Assembly (NCBI GenBank): GCA_016792685.1
Contig: JAEULQ010000128.1
Coordinates: forward strand, 1 to 33,120
Direction of reading: 5' to 3'
Origin: Tabrizicola sp.
GTDB taxonomy: Bacteria > Pseudomonadota > Alphaproteobacteria > Rhodobacterales > Rhodobacteraceae
Length of the DNA: 33,120 nucleotides
The position numbers and the translations under genes are program-made. A model generated the notes under the pieces. It did no database searches. It was not told the DNA's origin and saw only the letters and a list, made by a program, of their open reading frames with translations. Positions 25,745 to 31,123 of the stretch are shown one piece after another (the first letter of the stretch is position 1; each line of letters starts with the position of its first letter).

Positions 25745-27691
25745 ATGGGCCAGATTTCCCTGGCATTTCCTGACGGCAACCGGCGTGAGTATCCGGCGGG
25801 CGTGACGCCTGCCGAAGTGGCGGCGTCGATTGCGCCCTCGCTGGCCAAGGCGTCGATTTCGGCGCAGGTGAACGGAAAGCATTGGGATCTGGCTTGGCCG
25901 ATCCCGTCCGATGCGACGATCAGCCTGAACACGATGAAGGACGAGGCCCCGGCGCTGGAGCTGATCCGACATGATCTCGCGCATATCATGGCGCGGGCGG
26001 TGCAGGAGCTGTGGCCCGATGTGAAAGTGACGATCGGCCCGGTCCGCGACCAGGGCTGGTTCTACGATTTCGACCGGGCCGAGCCTTTCACGCCAGAGGA
26101 CCTTGGCGCGATCGAAGCGAAGATGAAGCAGATCATCAACGCCCGCGAGCCGGTGAAGACCGAGTTGTGGGACCGTGCCCGGGCGGTGGAATACTACCGG
26201 GGCCGGGGTGAGCCCTTCAAGCTGGAGCTTCTGGACCGCATCCCCGAAGGCGAAGACATCCGGATGTACTGGCACGGGAACTGGCAGGATCTTTGCCGGG
26301 GGCCGCATCTGCAGCATACGGGCCAGGTTCCGGCGGACGCGTTCAAGCTAACGCATGTCGCGGGCGCCTATTGGCTGGGCGATGCGTCGCGTCCGATGCT
26401 CCAGCGCATCTATGGCGTGGCGTTCCGCAACCGCGACGACCTCAAGGCGCACTTGACGATGCTGGAAGAGGCCGCCAAGCGCGACCACCGCAAGCTCGGC
26501 CGCGAAATGGAGCTTTTCCACCTGCAGGAAGAAGCGCCGGGCATGGTCTTCTGGCATCCGAACGGCTGGACCATCTACCGCCAGCTTGAGGATTACATGC
26601 GCGGCCGGCTGCGGCAGGCGGGATACAAGGAAATCCGCACGCCGCAGGTGGTGGACCGCGTCTTGTGGGAAAAGTCGGGCCACTGGGAGGCCTACCGCGA
26701 GAACATGTTCATCGTGGAGGTCGACGAAGAGGGTGCAAAGGAAAAGCGGATCAACGCCTTGAAGCCGATGAACTGCCCCTGCCATGTGCAGGTGTTCAAC
26801 CAAGGCCTCAAGTCCTACCGCGACCTGCCCTTGCGACTGGCGGAGTTCGGGTCCTGCCACCGGTATGAGTCGTCGGGCTCGATGCACGGGTTGATGCGGG
26901 TGCGTGGCTTTACACAGGACGACGCGCATATCTTCTGCACGGAAGATCAGATTGAGTCCGAATGCGCGGGATTCATCCGGCTTCTGTCCAGCGTCTACAA
27001 GGACCTTGGCTTCGACAGTTTCGAGATCAAATTGTCCACGCGCCCCGAAGTGCGGATCGGCACGGATGAGCAGTGGGACAAGGTTGAAGGCGCGTTGGAA
27101 GGGGCGATCAAGTCGCTGGGTCTGGCTTATGAGATCAACCCCGGCGACGGGGCCTTCTATGGCCCGAAACTGGACTTCAAGCTGACCGACGCCATCGGGC
27201 GGCAGTGGCAGTGCGGCACGTTCCAGGTCGACGCGCAGCTGCCGCACCGCCTGGGCGCGGAATATGTGGGCGAAGACGGCATGAAGCACACGCCCTACAT
27301 GCTGCACCGCGCAGTGCTGGGCTCGTTCGAGCGGTTTATCGGCATCCTTTTGGAAAACTACGCGGGCAAGCTGCCGTTCTGGCTCGCACCGCGGCAGGTC
27401 GTTGTGGCCTCCATCGTCTCGGACGCCGACCCCTTCGTGCATGAAGTCGTGGCGGCCCTGCGCAAGGCCGGGGTGCGGGCCGAGGCGGACGTGCGCAACG
27501 AAAAGATCAACTACAAGGTCCGCGAACATTCGGTCGGCAAAGTTCCCGTGATCCTGGCCATCGGGATGCAGGAGGTCGAGGCGAGAACTGTTTCAGTCCG
27601 TCGCCTGGGCGAGACGCGGACTGAAACGATCAGCCTCGATTCTGCGGTCGCAAGCTTTGGATTCGAAGCGCTGCCGCCGGCAATGGCCTGA
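25745..27691 (+). CDS. thrS: Threonyl-tRNA synthetase
   Basis: A 648-residue class II threonyl-tRNA synthetase. The TGS domain (1-62) is followed by the editing/second additional domain with [10 protein letters not shown] (His-x3-His) and DLCRGPHL. In the catalytic core, [10 protein letters not shown] carries a zinc-ligand Cys, and [20 protein letters not shown] is motif 2 with the threonine site. The C-terminal anticodon-binding domain starts near 545 ([20 protein letters not shown]). GAGGAGG lies 6 nt before ATG 25745. It is transcribed divergently from the hydrolase gene and ends in a terminator-like hairpin before the bufferin operon. Length is normal for the family. Confidence 0.98.
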
Positions 27692-27715: not shown

Positions 27716-27741
27716 AAAGCCTCGAATAGATGCGGGGCTTT
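27716..27741 (+). terminator. Probable thrS terminator
   Basis: AAAGCCTCG and CGGGGCTTT pair over nine positions (one G-U) with an 8-nt loop, 25 nt after the thrS stop. Only scattered T residues follow (TGTCATTTCC), so efficiency is uncertain. It separates thrS from the next operon. Confidence 0.6.
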
Positions 27742-27874
27742 GTCATTTCCGGCCGCCCGCTCGGGCCTCACGAAGCCGTGGCTCACGCGGCCGTGCTTGG
27801 CTTGTGAGCGGCGCATTCCCTTAGGTCTTTGTCAGTCGCGGAAGAAGGCGACGCTTAGACAAAGGGATGCTCAA

Positions 27875-28180
27875 ATGTCGTATCAATCCAAATCTCTCGT
27901 TATTGCAGGTGCTCTTGCTGCTGCCCTCTCCGGTGTCGCAGGCATGGCTTCGGCCCAGGAAAACGAGAAGTGCTTCGGCGTCGCGCTTGCCGGGCAGAAT
28001 GACTGTGCCGCGGGCGAAGGCACCACCTGCGCCGGGACCTCGAAGGTCGACTACCAGGGCAATTCTTGGAAGCTCGTCCCGGCTGGCACCTGCGAGACGA
28101 TGGAACTCCCGGCTGCCGAGGACGGCATGATGCGCAAGGGCTCGCTGACCGCGCTGGAGCGTGACCTGCCGCAGGCCTGA
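27875..28180 (+). CDS. bufA1: Bufferin-type RiPP precursor (DUF2282)
   Basis: A 101-residue DUF2282 protein, the precursor class of bufferins (also called gold-induced gig proteins). A Sec signal peptide ([20 protein letters not shown]) ends at ASA27-Q28. The mature peptide has the four family cysteines: [15 protein letters not shown] (Cys33, Cys44), [10 protein letters not shown] (Cys52) and VPAGTCE (Cys73). In this class the MNIO enzyme oxidises cysteines to thiooxazole-type heterocycles before export, and the product binds copper or similar metals in the periplasm. The tail (residues 74-101) is acidic and Met-containing. AAGGGA precedes ATG 27875. It leads the operon bufA-B-C-DoxX and is followed by a strong hairpin, so it may be made in excess over the enzymes. 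The modification itself is inferred from the family. Confidence 0.92.
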
Positions 28181-28188
28181 TGCCGATG

Positions 28189-28211
28189 GCCCCGGCCTTC
28201 CCGGCCGGGGC
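28189..28211 (+). terminator. Hairpin between precursor and MNIO genes (attenuator-like)
   Basis: GCCCCGGCC and GGCCGGGGC form a perfect 9-bp stem with a 5-nt loop, 8 nt after the bufA1 stop and 19 nt before the bufB start, followed by ACTTTCG rather than a full T-run. It is well placed to terminate part of the transcripts or protect the 3' end of the precursor message, giving more peptide than enzyme. Confidence 0.6.
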
Positions 28212-28230
28212 ACTTTCGATGGGGAACCCA

Positions 28231-29076
28231 ATGCTTGACCAGACCCTCAGCCTGCCCGCCCGTCCGGGCGTGGGCTACAAGCCCCAGCATTTTGCAGCGA
28301 TCCTGGCCAATCCGCACCCGGTCGGCTGGCTGGAAGTCCATGCCGAGAACTACATGGGTGACGGCGGCCGCCCGCTTGCGCAGTTGCGTCATCTGGCTGA
28401 ACGCTTCCCGATTTCGGTCCACGGTGTGGGCCTGTCGATTGGGGGCGAGGGACCTTTGAACCGCGACCACCTTCTGCGCCTGAAACAGCTTTGTGGCTGG
28501 CTGAACCCGGCAAGCTTTTCCGAACATCTTGCCTGGTCGACGCATGAGGGGGCCTTCCTGAACGACCTTCTGCCCTTGCCCTATACGCCCGCTACCCTGG
28601 CCCGCGTCGCCGACCACATCGACGAGGTGCAGGAGGTTCTCGGTCGTCGGATGCTTCTGGAAAACCCCTCGACCTATGTGGCCTTTGCCGAGACCGCGAT
28701 GGGCGAGGTCGAGTTCCTGACCGAAGTCGCGCGGCGCACCGGCTGCGGGCTGCTTCTGGACATCAACAACGTCTATGTCTCGGGCACCAACCAGAACTAT
28801 GACCCGGTCGACTACCTGGATGCCTTCCCGCTTCAGCTCGTGGGCGAAGTGCATCTTGGCGGCCATGACGAGGACCGCGATGACCAGGGGCGCAGACTGC
28901 TGATCGACAGCCATGGCGCCGAGGTGGTGGACCCGGTCTGGGCGCTTTACGCCCGGGTCATTCACCGGGCGGGCCCGCTGCCGACCCTGATCGAATGGGA
29001 CAACGATGTGCCGGACTGGCCGGTCCTTGCGGCCGAGGCTTCGCGGGCCGCGGCGATTCTGGAGCCGGTCGCATGA
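28231..29076 (+). CDS. bufB1: DUF692 multinuclear iron oxidase (MNIO, BufB-type)
   Basis: A 281-residue DUF692 TIM-barrel enzyme, the MNIO family (relative of methanobactin MbnB), a multinuclear iron oxidase that modifies peptide cysteines. ATG 28231 is chosen for GGGGAA upstream and for the family start [14 protein letters not shown]; an ATG at 28180 overlapping the bufA1 stop would put the hairpin inside the gene. Iron-ligand motifs are all present: EVHAENYM (His37, Glu39, Asn40), [11 protein letters not shown] (His64), SEHLAWS (His99), LENPSTYV (Glu144), [11 protein letters not shown] (Asp177, Asn179), [11 protein letters not shown] (His208, Asp213), DSHGAEV (Asp227, His228) and IEWDND (Glu255). 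It is coupled to bufC by a 4-nt overlap. Function is strong by family, untested here. Confidence 0.95.
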
Positions 29077-29804
29077 GCCAGTCGCTCTTTGCCCGGGCCC
29101 TGCTTGACCCCCAGGCTGCAATCCCCCCCGGCATCGTCGATCCCGAGGGTCGCCCGGCCCCGAAGCGCTTTTCCGTCTATCGCAACAATGTCGCCTTGTC
29201 CCTGACACGGGCGCTGGAGGCCGCGTTTCCGACGGTCCGAAAGCTGGTAGGCGAAGACTTCTTCGCTGCCATGGCCGGGGTTTTCCTGCGGGCCAACCCA
29301 CCAAGGTCGCGGATGCTGATGCTCTATGGTGATGACCTTCCGGCGTTCCTTGCCAGCTTTCCACCGGTTGCGCATCTTGGCTACCTGCCTGACGTCGCAA
29401 GGCTCGACCAGGCCATGCGCGAAAGCTATCACGCGGCGGACAGTTCGCCCTTGGACCAGGCCGATTTCGAGCGGCTCCTGGGCGAGGATCTTGCCGCCCT
29501 GCGCCTGTCGCTTGCCCCGTCCCTGCGGCTGGTCCGTTCGCGCTGGCCGATCGTGTCGATCTGGGCAGCACATGCCAATGGTGGTCCTGCGCCGAAGCCA
29601 GGCCCGGAGGATGCGCTGGTCCTGCGGCCTGATTTCGATCCTTTGCCGCAGCTCTTGCCTGCCGGCGGCGGCGCCTTTGTCACGGGCCTTCTTGAGGGGC
29701 GGACCCTGGGCGAAGCTGTTGATATTGCTGGACCCAAGCTCGACCTGCCTGCCGTTCTGGGGTTGCTCATCTCGGGCCGCGCCATTTCCGGAGTAACCGC
29801 ATGA
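29073..29804 (+). CDS. bufC1: DUF2063 partner protein (BufC/MbnC-type)
   Basis: A 243-residue DUF2063 protein, the partner of MNIO enzymes that recruits the precursor peptide and supports the oxidation. The family core is [20 protein letters not shown] (~33-52) with [13 protein letters not shown] next, then [20 protein letters not shown] (~89-108) and [13 protein letters not shown]. The remaining C-terminal part (~130-243) is the RiPP-recognition-like lobe of MbnC-type proteins. ATG 29073 overlaps the bufB stop (ATGA); the frame is open further left but lies within bufB. Its own stop overlaps the DoxX gene in the same way. No signal peptide, so it is cytoplasmic. Confidence 0.92.
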
Positions 29805-30340
29805 CCTTCATCCGTACTGCCCATGATCGTGCCGCCGGGAGGCTAGACCGCTCTGCCGACTGGCTGCTGCCGAGCCTGGCGCGAATGGTCTTTGCCGCTG
29901 TCCTGCTTGGCTATTTCTGGGCCTCGGCCATGACAAAACTCGACGGCCCGATCACCCCCTCCATCGGGGCCTACGCCCAGATCTTTCCGAAAGCCTTCGA
30001 GGCTGCCGGCTATGATGTCGGACAAATGGGGCTCTGGCATTGGCTGGTAGTGCTGGCCGGTGCCTGGGCTGAATTTGCACTACCTGCACTGATCACTGTC
30101 GGGCTGCTGACCCGGCTTGCAGCCTTGGGGATGATGGGTTTCGTGGCGGTGCAAAGCCTGACCGACATCTACGGCCACGGCGCCGCGTCAGGCGCTTGGT
30201 TCGACCGAGCGTCTGACGCGCTGATCCTTGACCAGCGGGCGTTCTGGATGCTTTTGCTGGCCGTTCTGGTCCTCAAAGGGGCGGGTCCGATCTCGGCGGA
30301 TCGGTTCCTCAGGGTTGAAACGGTTCGCCTTGCAGCTTGA
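29801..30340 (+). CDS. bufD1: DoxX-family membrane protein of the bufferin operon
   Basis: A 179-residue DoxX-family inner-membrane protein with four predicted helices: ~24-42 (PSLARMVFAAVLLGYFWASA), ~79-100 (WHWLVVLAGAWAEFALPALI), ~103-122 and ~145-161 (AFWMLLLAVLVLKGAG). The N-terminal ~20 residues are cytoplasmic and basic. DoxX proteins are regular members of bufferin/gig operons, where their role (possibly redox or export related) is not settled. ATG 29801 overlaps the bufC stop by 4 nt. It is the last gene of the operon; the next gene starts 138 bp later. Confidence 0.9.
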   Translation: MTFIRTAHDRAAGRLDRSADWLLPSLARMVFAAVLLGYFWASAMTKLDGPITPSIGAYAQIFPKAFEAAGYDVGQMGLWHWLVVLAGAWAEFALPALITVGLLTRLAALGMMGFVAVQSLTDIYGHGAASGAWFDRASDALILDQRAFWMLLLAVLVLKGAGPISADRFLRVETVRLAA

Positions 30341-30478
30341 TTTTCGGCAAATCCTTGGCATCATCGCCACAGTGACGACAGAATTCCTGACCGCCCTCGC
30401 AGAACGACGGCCCTGGAAGACCTGGTGGCACGGCCCGCGGCAATCTCGCCACGGGGAGGTTCTGAGAGGAGAAGCGGC

Positions 30479-30685
30479 ATGCCGACAGGCACCGTGAAGT
30501 GGTTCAATTCGACCAAGGGCTACGGGTTCATCGCGCCGGATGACGGCGGCAAGGATGTGTTCGTCCATATCTCGGCGGTGGAACGCGCCGGGCTGAAGGG
30601 GCTCAGCGACAACCAGAAGATCGGCTACGAACTTCAGTCGGGCCGGGATGGGAAGCAGTCTGCGGGCGACCTGCGGCTGCTTTGA
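30479..30685 (+). CDS. Cold-shock-domain protein (CspA family)
   Basis: A 68-residue single cold-shock domain, a nucleic-acid-binding OB fold acting as RNA chaperone. TGTVKWFNSTKGYGFIAPDD contains RNP1 (K-G-Y-G-F-I) and DVFVHISAVE contains RNP2. It is nearly all domain, as usual for CspA proteins. GAGAGGAG sits 6 nt before ATG 30479. The 138-bp leader separates it from the DoxX gene and may include a regulatory 5' UTR as in other csp genes, though I could not define a structure. It ends one nt from the convergent Spx/ArsC-like gene, so both messages may overlap. Confidence 0.95.
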   Translation: MPTGTVKWFNSTKGYGFIAPDDGGKDVFVHISAVERAGLKGLSDNQKIGYELQSGRDGKQSAGDLRLL

Positions 30686-30686
30686 T

Positions 30687-31013
30687 CTAACTGGTCAGCG
30701 CGGCTTCGGTCGCGCTGTCCCACCCCAGGTACCAGCGATCGCCGTCCTGGACGACCGGCCGCTTCATGACGGTCGGCTGGGCCGCGATCTGCGCCTCGGG
30801 GTCGGAGGCCTTCAGGAAATCGTTGAAGCTGCGATAGGTGGTGGACTGTTTGTTCACCGCGAGGTCGCCGAATTCGTGAGTGATCGCCTCGATCTCGGCC
30901 GCCGAGAGGGGGGCGGCCCGAATGTCGCGGAAGGTGACGTCCTTGCCGGCGGCCTCCAGGGTTTTCAGGGCGCGCTTGCAGGTGTCGCAGGTCGAGATGC
31001 CGTAAAGGATCAT
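30687..31013 (-). CDS. Spx/ArsC (YffB)-like reductase family protein
   Basis: A 108-residue thioredoxin-fold protein of the ArsC/Spx/YffB group. ATG 31013 begins MILYGISTCDTCKRALKTLE, with the Cys9-x-x-Cys12 redox motif. The conserved MKRPVVQDGDRWYLGW near residue 83 carries the basic residue of the family's C-terminal signature. The group includes arsenate reductases and glutathione-linked proteins of unknown role; the second Cys argues for the YffB/Spx side rather than single-Cys ArsC. The frame is open a little further upstream, but that part is the 28-nt repeat. Tail-to-tail with the cold-shock gene, 1 nt apart. Substrate unknown. Confidence 0.85.
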   Translation of the reverse strand: MILYGISTCDTCKRALKTLEAAGKDVTFRDIRAAPLSAAEIEAITHEFGDLAVNKQSTTYRSFNDFLKASDPEAQIAAQPTVMKRPVVQDGDRWYLGWDSATEAALTS

Positions 31014-31025
31014 GTTGGCCTTCCA

Positions 31026-31053
31026 GTCCACAGTGGACACTTTCGGATTTGCG
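31026..31053 (+). repeat. 28-nt palindromic repeat, copy 1
   Basis: GTCCAC-A-GTGGAC (a perfect 13-bp palindrome) followed by an asymmetric tail AYTTTYGGATT. It matches the copy at 32652-32679 at 24 of 28 positions in the same orientation. It lies just upstream of the Spx/ArsC-like gene. A second copy beside the RAYT gene suggests a REP-like mobile element or a repeated binding site. Confidence 0.65.
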
Positions 31054-31123
31054 CCTGAATTCAATTGCTTGCGCGCAGGCGATCGCCGATTGGTATCACA
31101 TCATTGCGGGGGCCGCAAAGGGG

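Follow-up and report, generated by a model that had tools for sequence, protein, structure and literature searches.

A bufferin-1 operon behind thrS in Tabrizicola with operator-like upstream palindromes and an intercistronic hairpin

The four genes and their products

The stretch of DNA analysed here, referred to as the window, comprises positions 1 to 33,120 of the forward strand of contig JAEULQ010000128.1 from Tabrizicola sp. (assembly GCA_016792685.1; Rhodobacteraceae, Alphaproteobacteria). It carries four genes, bufA to bufD, which by their sequences form an ordinary bufferin-1 (DUF2282-type, Buf1) operon, preceded by operator-like palindromes and with a hairpin between bufA and bufB (Table 1). 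The original prediction, which described a bufferin/gig-type operon for a ribosomally synthesized and post-translationally modified peptide (RiPP), is confirmed as to the four genes, their order and their coordinates. The class assignment is supported by family tests, the motif alignment of the multinuclear non-heme iron-dependent oxidase (MNIO) and the predicted fold of BufC, and the profile searches suggested as a check matched all four families, namely DUF2282, DUF692-type MNIO, DUF2063 and DoxX. The prediction was also correct in placing the operon directly behind thrS, with only one precursor gene and without a sigma factor next to it: in the assembly of the window's own genome (3.58 Mb, 88.9% complete) profile search found one MNIO and one DUF2282 protein, and no NrsF (PF06532) genome-wide. 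All three features are usual among the sampled members of the family and do not set this locus apart.

Table 1. Features of the bufferin-1 locus (positions in the window)
Feature	Position	Strand	Basis or remark
thrS (threonyl-tRNA synthetase), upstream neighbour outside the operon	25745..27691	+	TGS, tRNA_SAD, tRNA-synt_2b and anticodon-binding domains
Terminator-like hairpin after thrS	27717..27740	+	8-bp stem, -11.3 kcal/mol
Operator-like palindrome 1, TCACGAAGCCGTGG	27768..27781		One mismatch to TCACG-N4-CGTGA
Operator-like palindrome 2, TCACGCGGCCGTGC	27783..27796		One mismatch; 15 bp after palindrome 1
-10-like CTTAGGT	27820..27826	+	Lines up with the TAG column of relatives in the upstream alignment
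bufA, bufferin-1 precursor	27875..28180	+	PF10048 (DUF2282), four Cys
BufA signal peptide	27875..27955	+	By eye
BufA DUF2282 core	27962..28108	+	Pfam
Conserved BufA C-terminal tail (GSL...RDLP)	28139..28177	+	Outside DUF2282
bufA-bufB hairpin, GCCCCGGCC-TTCCC-GGCCGGGGC	28189..28211	+	
bufB, MNIO bufferin maturase	28231..29076	+	Likely start; alternatives 28219, 28180; PF05114, NF050167
bufC, DUF2063 partner (PME type 1)	29073..29804	+	RRE-like (RiPP recognition element) C-terminal part; PF09836, predicted structure
bufD, DoxX-family membrane protein	29801..30340	+	PF07681

Two samples of loci serve for comparison. The named set consists of the best 80 MNIO loci in named records, 78 of them with a readable bufA, and the even draw covers 295 genomes of the family, 211 of which encode DUF2282, and provides 89 loci (29 best-scoring and 60 taken roughly in rank order, small contigs being passed over).

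BufA is a protein of 101 amino acids that scores 90.9 bits against DUF2282 (cut-off 22.4) and contains four cysteines, Cys33, Cys44, Cys52 and Cys73. Their C-x10-C-x7-C-x20-C spacing is retained in all 157 distinct BufA sequences, eight of which have a fifth cysteine. The N-terminus, as judged by eye, combines a positive start with a hydrophobic stretch and ASA before Gln28. At the other end, RD[LMIV] is found close to the C-terminus in 142 of the 157 sequences; this tail is present at 71 of 75 even-draw loci without an adjacent sigF and is rarer where sigF adjoins (4 of 14), and may possibly serve as a recognition sequence for BufBC. No EGKCG repeat occurs in the BufA sequence. Searches of PDB sequences with BufA and BufC returned nothing useful, and PHROGs holds no family for BufA or BufB. 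Elsewhere, one locus (L193; genome G007, contig C18, 55492-55647 and 55835-55990) encodes tandem DUF2282 domains, which suggests two precursors per maturase.

BufB is matched by PF05114 (352.5 bits) and exceeds the cut-off of the NCBIfam equivalog model NF050167 (MNIO_BufB; 380.6 bits, cut-off 310), whereas it remains under the cut-off of the HvfB model (236.7 bits against 360) and far under those for MbnB, ApyH and ChrH. The conserved MNIO motifs of BufB align with those of 3BWW, TglH and MbnB and are invariant across 20 aligned sequences; particular residues within them we take to be the iron holders. The BufB stretch GYKP is aligned to GYRR of 3BWW, which fits the reduced conservation described for DUF2282-type MNIOs at Arg16 of FonB (PMC12668002), provided that both stretches correspond. 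BufC scores 89.9 bits against PF09836 and only 23.4 bits against the HvfC model (cut-off 142). Its structure is predicted with a mean pLDDT (predicted local distance difference test) of 93.3, and the best solved match to the fold is chain A of the TglHI complex (8hi7, E 2.5e-6), which by its length is the TglI subunit. The third match is NGO1945 (3dee, E 2.4e-3), described as a typical MNIO partner (PMC12452194). BufD is assigned to DoxX with 30.3 bits (cut-off 23.6).

The same order of DUF2282, DUF692/MNIO, DUF2063 and DoxX genes is found in Caulobacter vibrioides CC3254-CC3257, part of the sigma-F regulon (PMC3511200), and Caulobacter bufferin-1 has the same type of four-cysteine precursor (PMC12452194). 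What distinguishes the window from the Caulobacter operon is the thrS neighbour and the upstream palindrome repeat; conversely, sigF and an anti-sigma gene adjoin the operon in Caulobacter, together with a GTAACC-N16-CGAA promoter (PMC3511200), neither of which was found here. The gold-induced (gig) operons of Cupriavidus and Legionella, here likened by description only, are called bufferin clusters as well (PMC12452194). Oxazolin/captophorin clusters (HvfABC, FonABC) share the MNIO and DUF2063 partner, and 5-thiooxazole chemistry has been reported for them (PMC12668002), but they have EGKCG precursors, unlike BufA, consistent with the HvfB and HvfC scores. The pearlin and methanobactin systems, TglHI and MbnBC, are related in MNIO sequence and partner fold, yet their precursors are described as lacking a signal peptide (PMC12452194), and the MbnB, ApyH and ChrH models stay far under cut-off here.

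In its chemistry the cluster belongs to a widespread class that was described only recently, and it adds one member to it. In Buf1, the two central cysteines are modified and the outer pair is joined by a disulfide (PMC12452194), and 5-thiooxazoles are reported for characterised products of MNIO-PME1 systems (PMC12668002). By analogy, Cys44 and Cys52 would be the targets here; the original prediction had expected mass shifts on all four cysteines, a view that does not accord with the published Buf1 work (PMC12452194). We therefore model the pathway on Buf1: BufA would be made with a signal peptide, the iron oxidase BufB and its partner BufC would convert Cys44 and Cys52 to 5-thiooxazoles in the cytoplasm, and the modified BufA would be exported and acquire a Cys33-Cys73 disulfide. 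The mature peptide may then bind copper in the periplasm, as the thiooxazoles of Caulobacter Buf1 do, which also improves growth in copper excess (PMC12452194), with BufD perhaps assisting.

The junction between bufA and bufB

The ATGA overlaps that had been proposed throughout the operon are present at 29073 and 29801, but not between bufA and bufB, where the first ATG of bufB (28180) merely makes a one-base TGATG contact with the bufA stop codon. Among 105 junction rows, from which three of 108 loci were left out as having no bufB core, the ATG at the bufA stop is missing in most, and an in-frame ATG further downstream is present in every row including that of the window, usually about 50-75 nt past the bufA stop. 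The corresponding candidates in the window are located at 28219 and 28231, with GGGGAA just upstream of the latter, which is the likely start of bufB.

The intervening hairpin has counterparts in many relatives. Stems of at least eight Watson-Crick pairs lie within 50 nt past the bufA stop in 60 of 104 sequences of a first set and 25 of 59 of a second, partly overlapping set, compared with about 1% in shuffled sequences and 1 of 59 in windows placed inside bufB. The stem sequences vary between species, with the pairing kept. Outside the family such stems are rare, being present between bufA and bufB at 2 of 26 loci (of 29 loci, L322, which belongs to the same family, and two without a usable ATG were dropped).

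We suggest that the hairpin probably holds the output of peptide above that of enzyme. Alternatively, it could hide the start region of bufB and thereby act on bufB translation instead of on the bufA 3' end, and in the window it does end 7 nt before the ATG at 28219 and 19 nt before that at 28231. However, the start of the hairpin is usually situated about 5-15 nt from the bufA stop, whereas its distance to the bufB ATG is more variable. The steadier distance to the bufA stop fits better with an element of the bufA 3' end, and we regard a role in bufB translation as rather unlikely.

The place behind thrS and the upstream palindromes

The terminator-like hairpin that follows thrS would represent the end of the thrS transcript, and the operon may form its own transcription unit behind thrS. 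Among the named loci, thrS is present in the fetched stretch in 77 of 78 cases, and at 69 loci it lies no more than 1 kb ahead of bufA, although these are the nearest relatives and thus biased towards synteny. In the even draw, thrS is located within 1 kb of bufA at 56 of the 89 loci, sigF or nrsF lies beside bufA at 14, and 19 have neither neighbour, six of these with thrS at 1-3 kb. At the 26 best-scoring loci taken from elsewhere in the class (with 1.5-kb flanks), no thrS was observed beside bufA. That sigF and thrS never occur together within 1 kb (0 of 89) is not used as evidence, because a gap of that size is too small for the sigF-nrsF pair, which makes the count trivial.

An expectation-maximization motif search over 104 distinct upstream regions recovered TCACG-N4-CGTGA followed by CACGGGCCCGTGA, positioned some 75-135 bp ahead of bufA (log-likelihood 927 versus 65 for shuffled sequences), and at least half of the 91 loci with the motif have a TAG-like -10 element at constant distance from it. 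The strict 22-bp pattern was matched in 38 of 198 genomes, with a single copy per genome, and the reversed pattern in none. Of 30 strict-pattern loci taken, with 8 of the 38 matches outside this set, 26 have it before bufA and four elsewhere; in the latter (L118, L132, L136 and L141) inspection by eye revealed no gene resembling a regulator, and these matches were attributed to chance. A palindrome model, applied at a 99% shuffle threshold, is passed by 53 of the 56 even-draw loci linked to thrS and also by 14 of the 19 that have neither thrS within 1 kb nor sigF. Independently of any model, 64 of 89 loci have a palindrome with no more than one mismatch within 300 bp of bufA, where 0.8 would be expected and the control gives 0 of 88. 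One of the top upstream k-mers, TGTAACA, was dropped as a promoter element, since in many loci it is found at the stop codon of thrS.

These observations lead us to propose that an unlinked DNA-binding regulator most likely controls the bufA promoter through tandem palindromes of the TCACG-N4-CGTGA type, in place of the sigF-nrsF pair that serves Caulobacter and a minority of the family. The palindromes might instead be a structural element of DNA or RNA, or belong to an extended sigma-factor promoter, and at sigF-linked loci the palindrome indeed stands directly before the sigma-F-type -35, as would be expected of the latter. This is unlikely, given that at thrS-linked loci the palindrome is repeated with a 15-bp period upstream of the -10-like box, where transcription probably does not reach it, and that it also precedes other genes of the same kind (see below).

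As a whole, we consider it probable that the locus is a bufferin-1 operon for a thiooxazole copper peptide, transcribed as its own unit behind thrS, controlled by an unlinked regulator through the palindromes and equipped with a hairpin that sets relative output. Several points weigh against this view. The two palindromes of the window carry one mismatch each and the strict pattern misses the window's own genome, in which, moreover, a lone palindrome with up to one mismatch is unspecific (70 sites versus 45 for the reversed control). The palindrome model is passed by 8 of the 14 sigF-linked loci, so that the palindrome is not simply exclusive of sigma-F, and it is failed by three of the 56 thrS-linked loci. 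Training of the model overlaps with the test set, including 29 of the even-draw loci, and nine named loci are the same as even-draw loci. In addition, the hairpin may have another role, and the copper function is transferred from relatives.

A possible regulon and two switches

Exact TCACG-N4-CGTGA palindromes occur five times in the window's own genome. One is situated between divergent msrP and fasciclin genes (L144, on contig C60; site at 1501-1514 of the locus), and another between a fasciclin gene and a gene pair for an extracytoplasmic function (ECF) sigma factor and an RskA-type anti-sigma factor (L145, on contig C106; site at 1501-1514 of the locus; identities at both sites by hidden Markov models). 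The L145 site has a conserved counterpart at the equivalent position in G191 (L244), a genome of the same genus. Five other genomes contain nine exact palindromes, three near fasciclin genes and six not; one genome has none. When one mismatch is allowed, 7 of 29 fasciclin genes and 6 of 30 msrP genes have a palindrome in the 300 bp preceding them, with 0.3 expected for each; start codons were picked by rule and the own-genome site is part of both sets. The enrichment is modest, and weaker than that before bufA. The sigma-F regulon of Caulobacter includes both bufferin operons as well as the gene for YedY (MsrP) (PMC3511200), so that the target sets overlap, although the switch differs.

The msrP enrichment is also what would be expected if the operon served mainly against a stress other than copper, for instance oxidants, gold, chromium or a different metal, and the Caulobacter sigma-F genes, among them that of YedY, respond to dichromate and cadmium (PMC3511200). 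Against this stand the copper binding of Caulobacter Buf1 and its benefit in copper excess noted above, and we consider a main role other than in copper unlikely.

The sigma-F site of Caulobacter is GTAACC-N16-CGAA (PMC3511200), and loci were scored here for GTAA[CA]-N16-18-CGA only. The 183-bp gap between thrS and bufA in the window contains neither a match to this sigma-F-type promoter nor any GTAA. NrsF was detected in 45 of the 295 family genomes, in 40 of them over the cut-off. At the even-draw bufA loci, sigma-F-type promoters number 15 of 89; they are present at 15 of 19 loci from genomes with an over-cut-off NrsF and at none of the 70 others. By neighbourhood, they are seen at 11 of 14 sigF-linked loci versus 1 of 56 thrS-linked loci, the latter (L204) coming from a genome whose NrsF is unlinked. 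In the named set, exactly four of 78 loci (L052, L056, L057 and L067) have sigF and nrsF, which were located by tblastn and always lie between thrS and bufA. All four have the promoter versus 0 of the 74 others (Fisher p 7e-7, relatedness ignored). At these four loci sigF and nrsF form a divergent pair, and a single palindrome is left beside the sigma-F-type -35. When the wide thrS-bufA gaps were read for a linked regulator, SigF- and NrsF-like proteins were seen in L052 and, by eye, a TetR-like one in L057, but no regulator common to the loci.

Thus, the question of induction is narrowed to a gap that has a conserved operator-like element and no sigma-F-type promoter. That the operon is still controlled by sigma-F/NrsF, the unlinked pair having been missed in an assembly that is only 88.9% complete, is highly improbable despite the precedent of L204, as NrsF was found neither in the window's own genome (G000) nor in G191, which is 99% complete, and neither the 183-bp gap nor any of the 70 loci from genomes lacking an over-cut-off NrsF has the promoter.

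In a BufB tree of 83 rows, from which seven of the 89 even-draw loci without usable BufB were left out, three changes between the two states are needed (from a short search, with good support for 14 of 80 inner branches), and the window shares its small group with the sigF-linked locus L025. Together, these indicate that the sigF-nrsF cassette appears more than once at what seems to be the same locus, the direction not being proven. We see about even chances that an unlinked regulator runs a small envelope-protection regulon of bufferin, msrP and fasciclin genes through the palindromes, and that sigF-nrsF took over the bufferin promoter in several lineages. If so, a target set overlapping that of Caulobacter sigma-F (bufferins and MsrP) would be wired to two different switches.

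The literature searched gives no account of the operator, the hairpin or the link to thrS, which is weak evidence of absence in view of a shallow search with few subscription journals; the terms 'promoter', 'hairpin' and 'stem-loop' do not occur in PMC12452194. What that literature does not describe is a control region in which clusters without the known sigma factor share a conserved cis-element, a mostly constant position on the chromosome and a hairpin between cistrons, and natural loci with sigF-nrsF and a different promoter stand beside them as a comparison. The putative bufA regulator is findable, and the control region offers a concrete route to what switches bufferins on without sigF-nrsF and to whether the bufferin and MsrP genes answer to a common response.

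Downstream of the operon lie a gene for a cold-shock protein (30476-30685, + strand) and an ArsC-like gene (30687-31064, - strand), homologues of which are found at 67 and 68, respectively, of the best 80 named loci, some of whose stretches end early.

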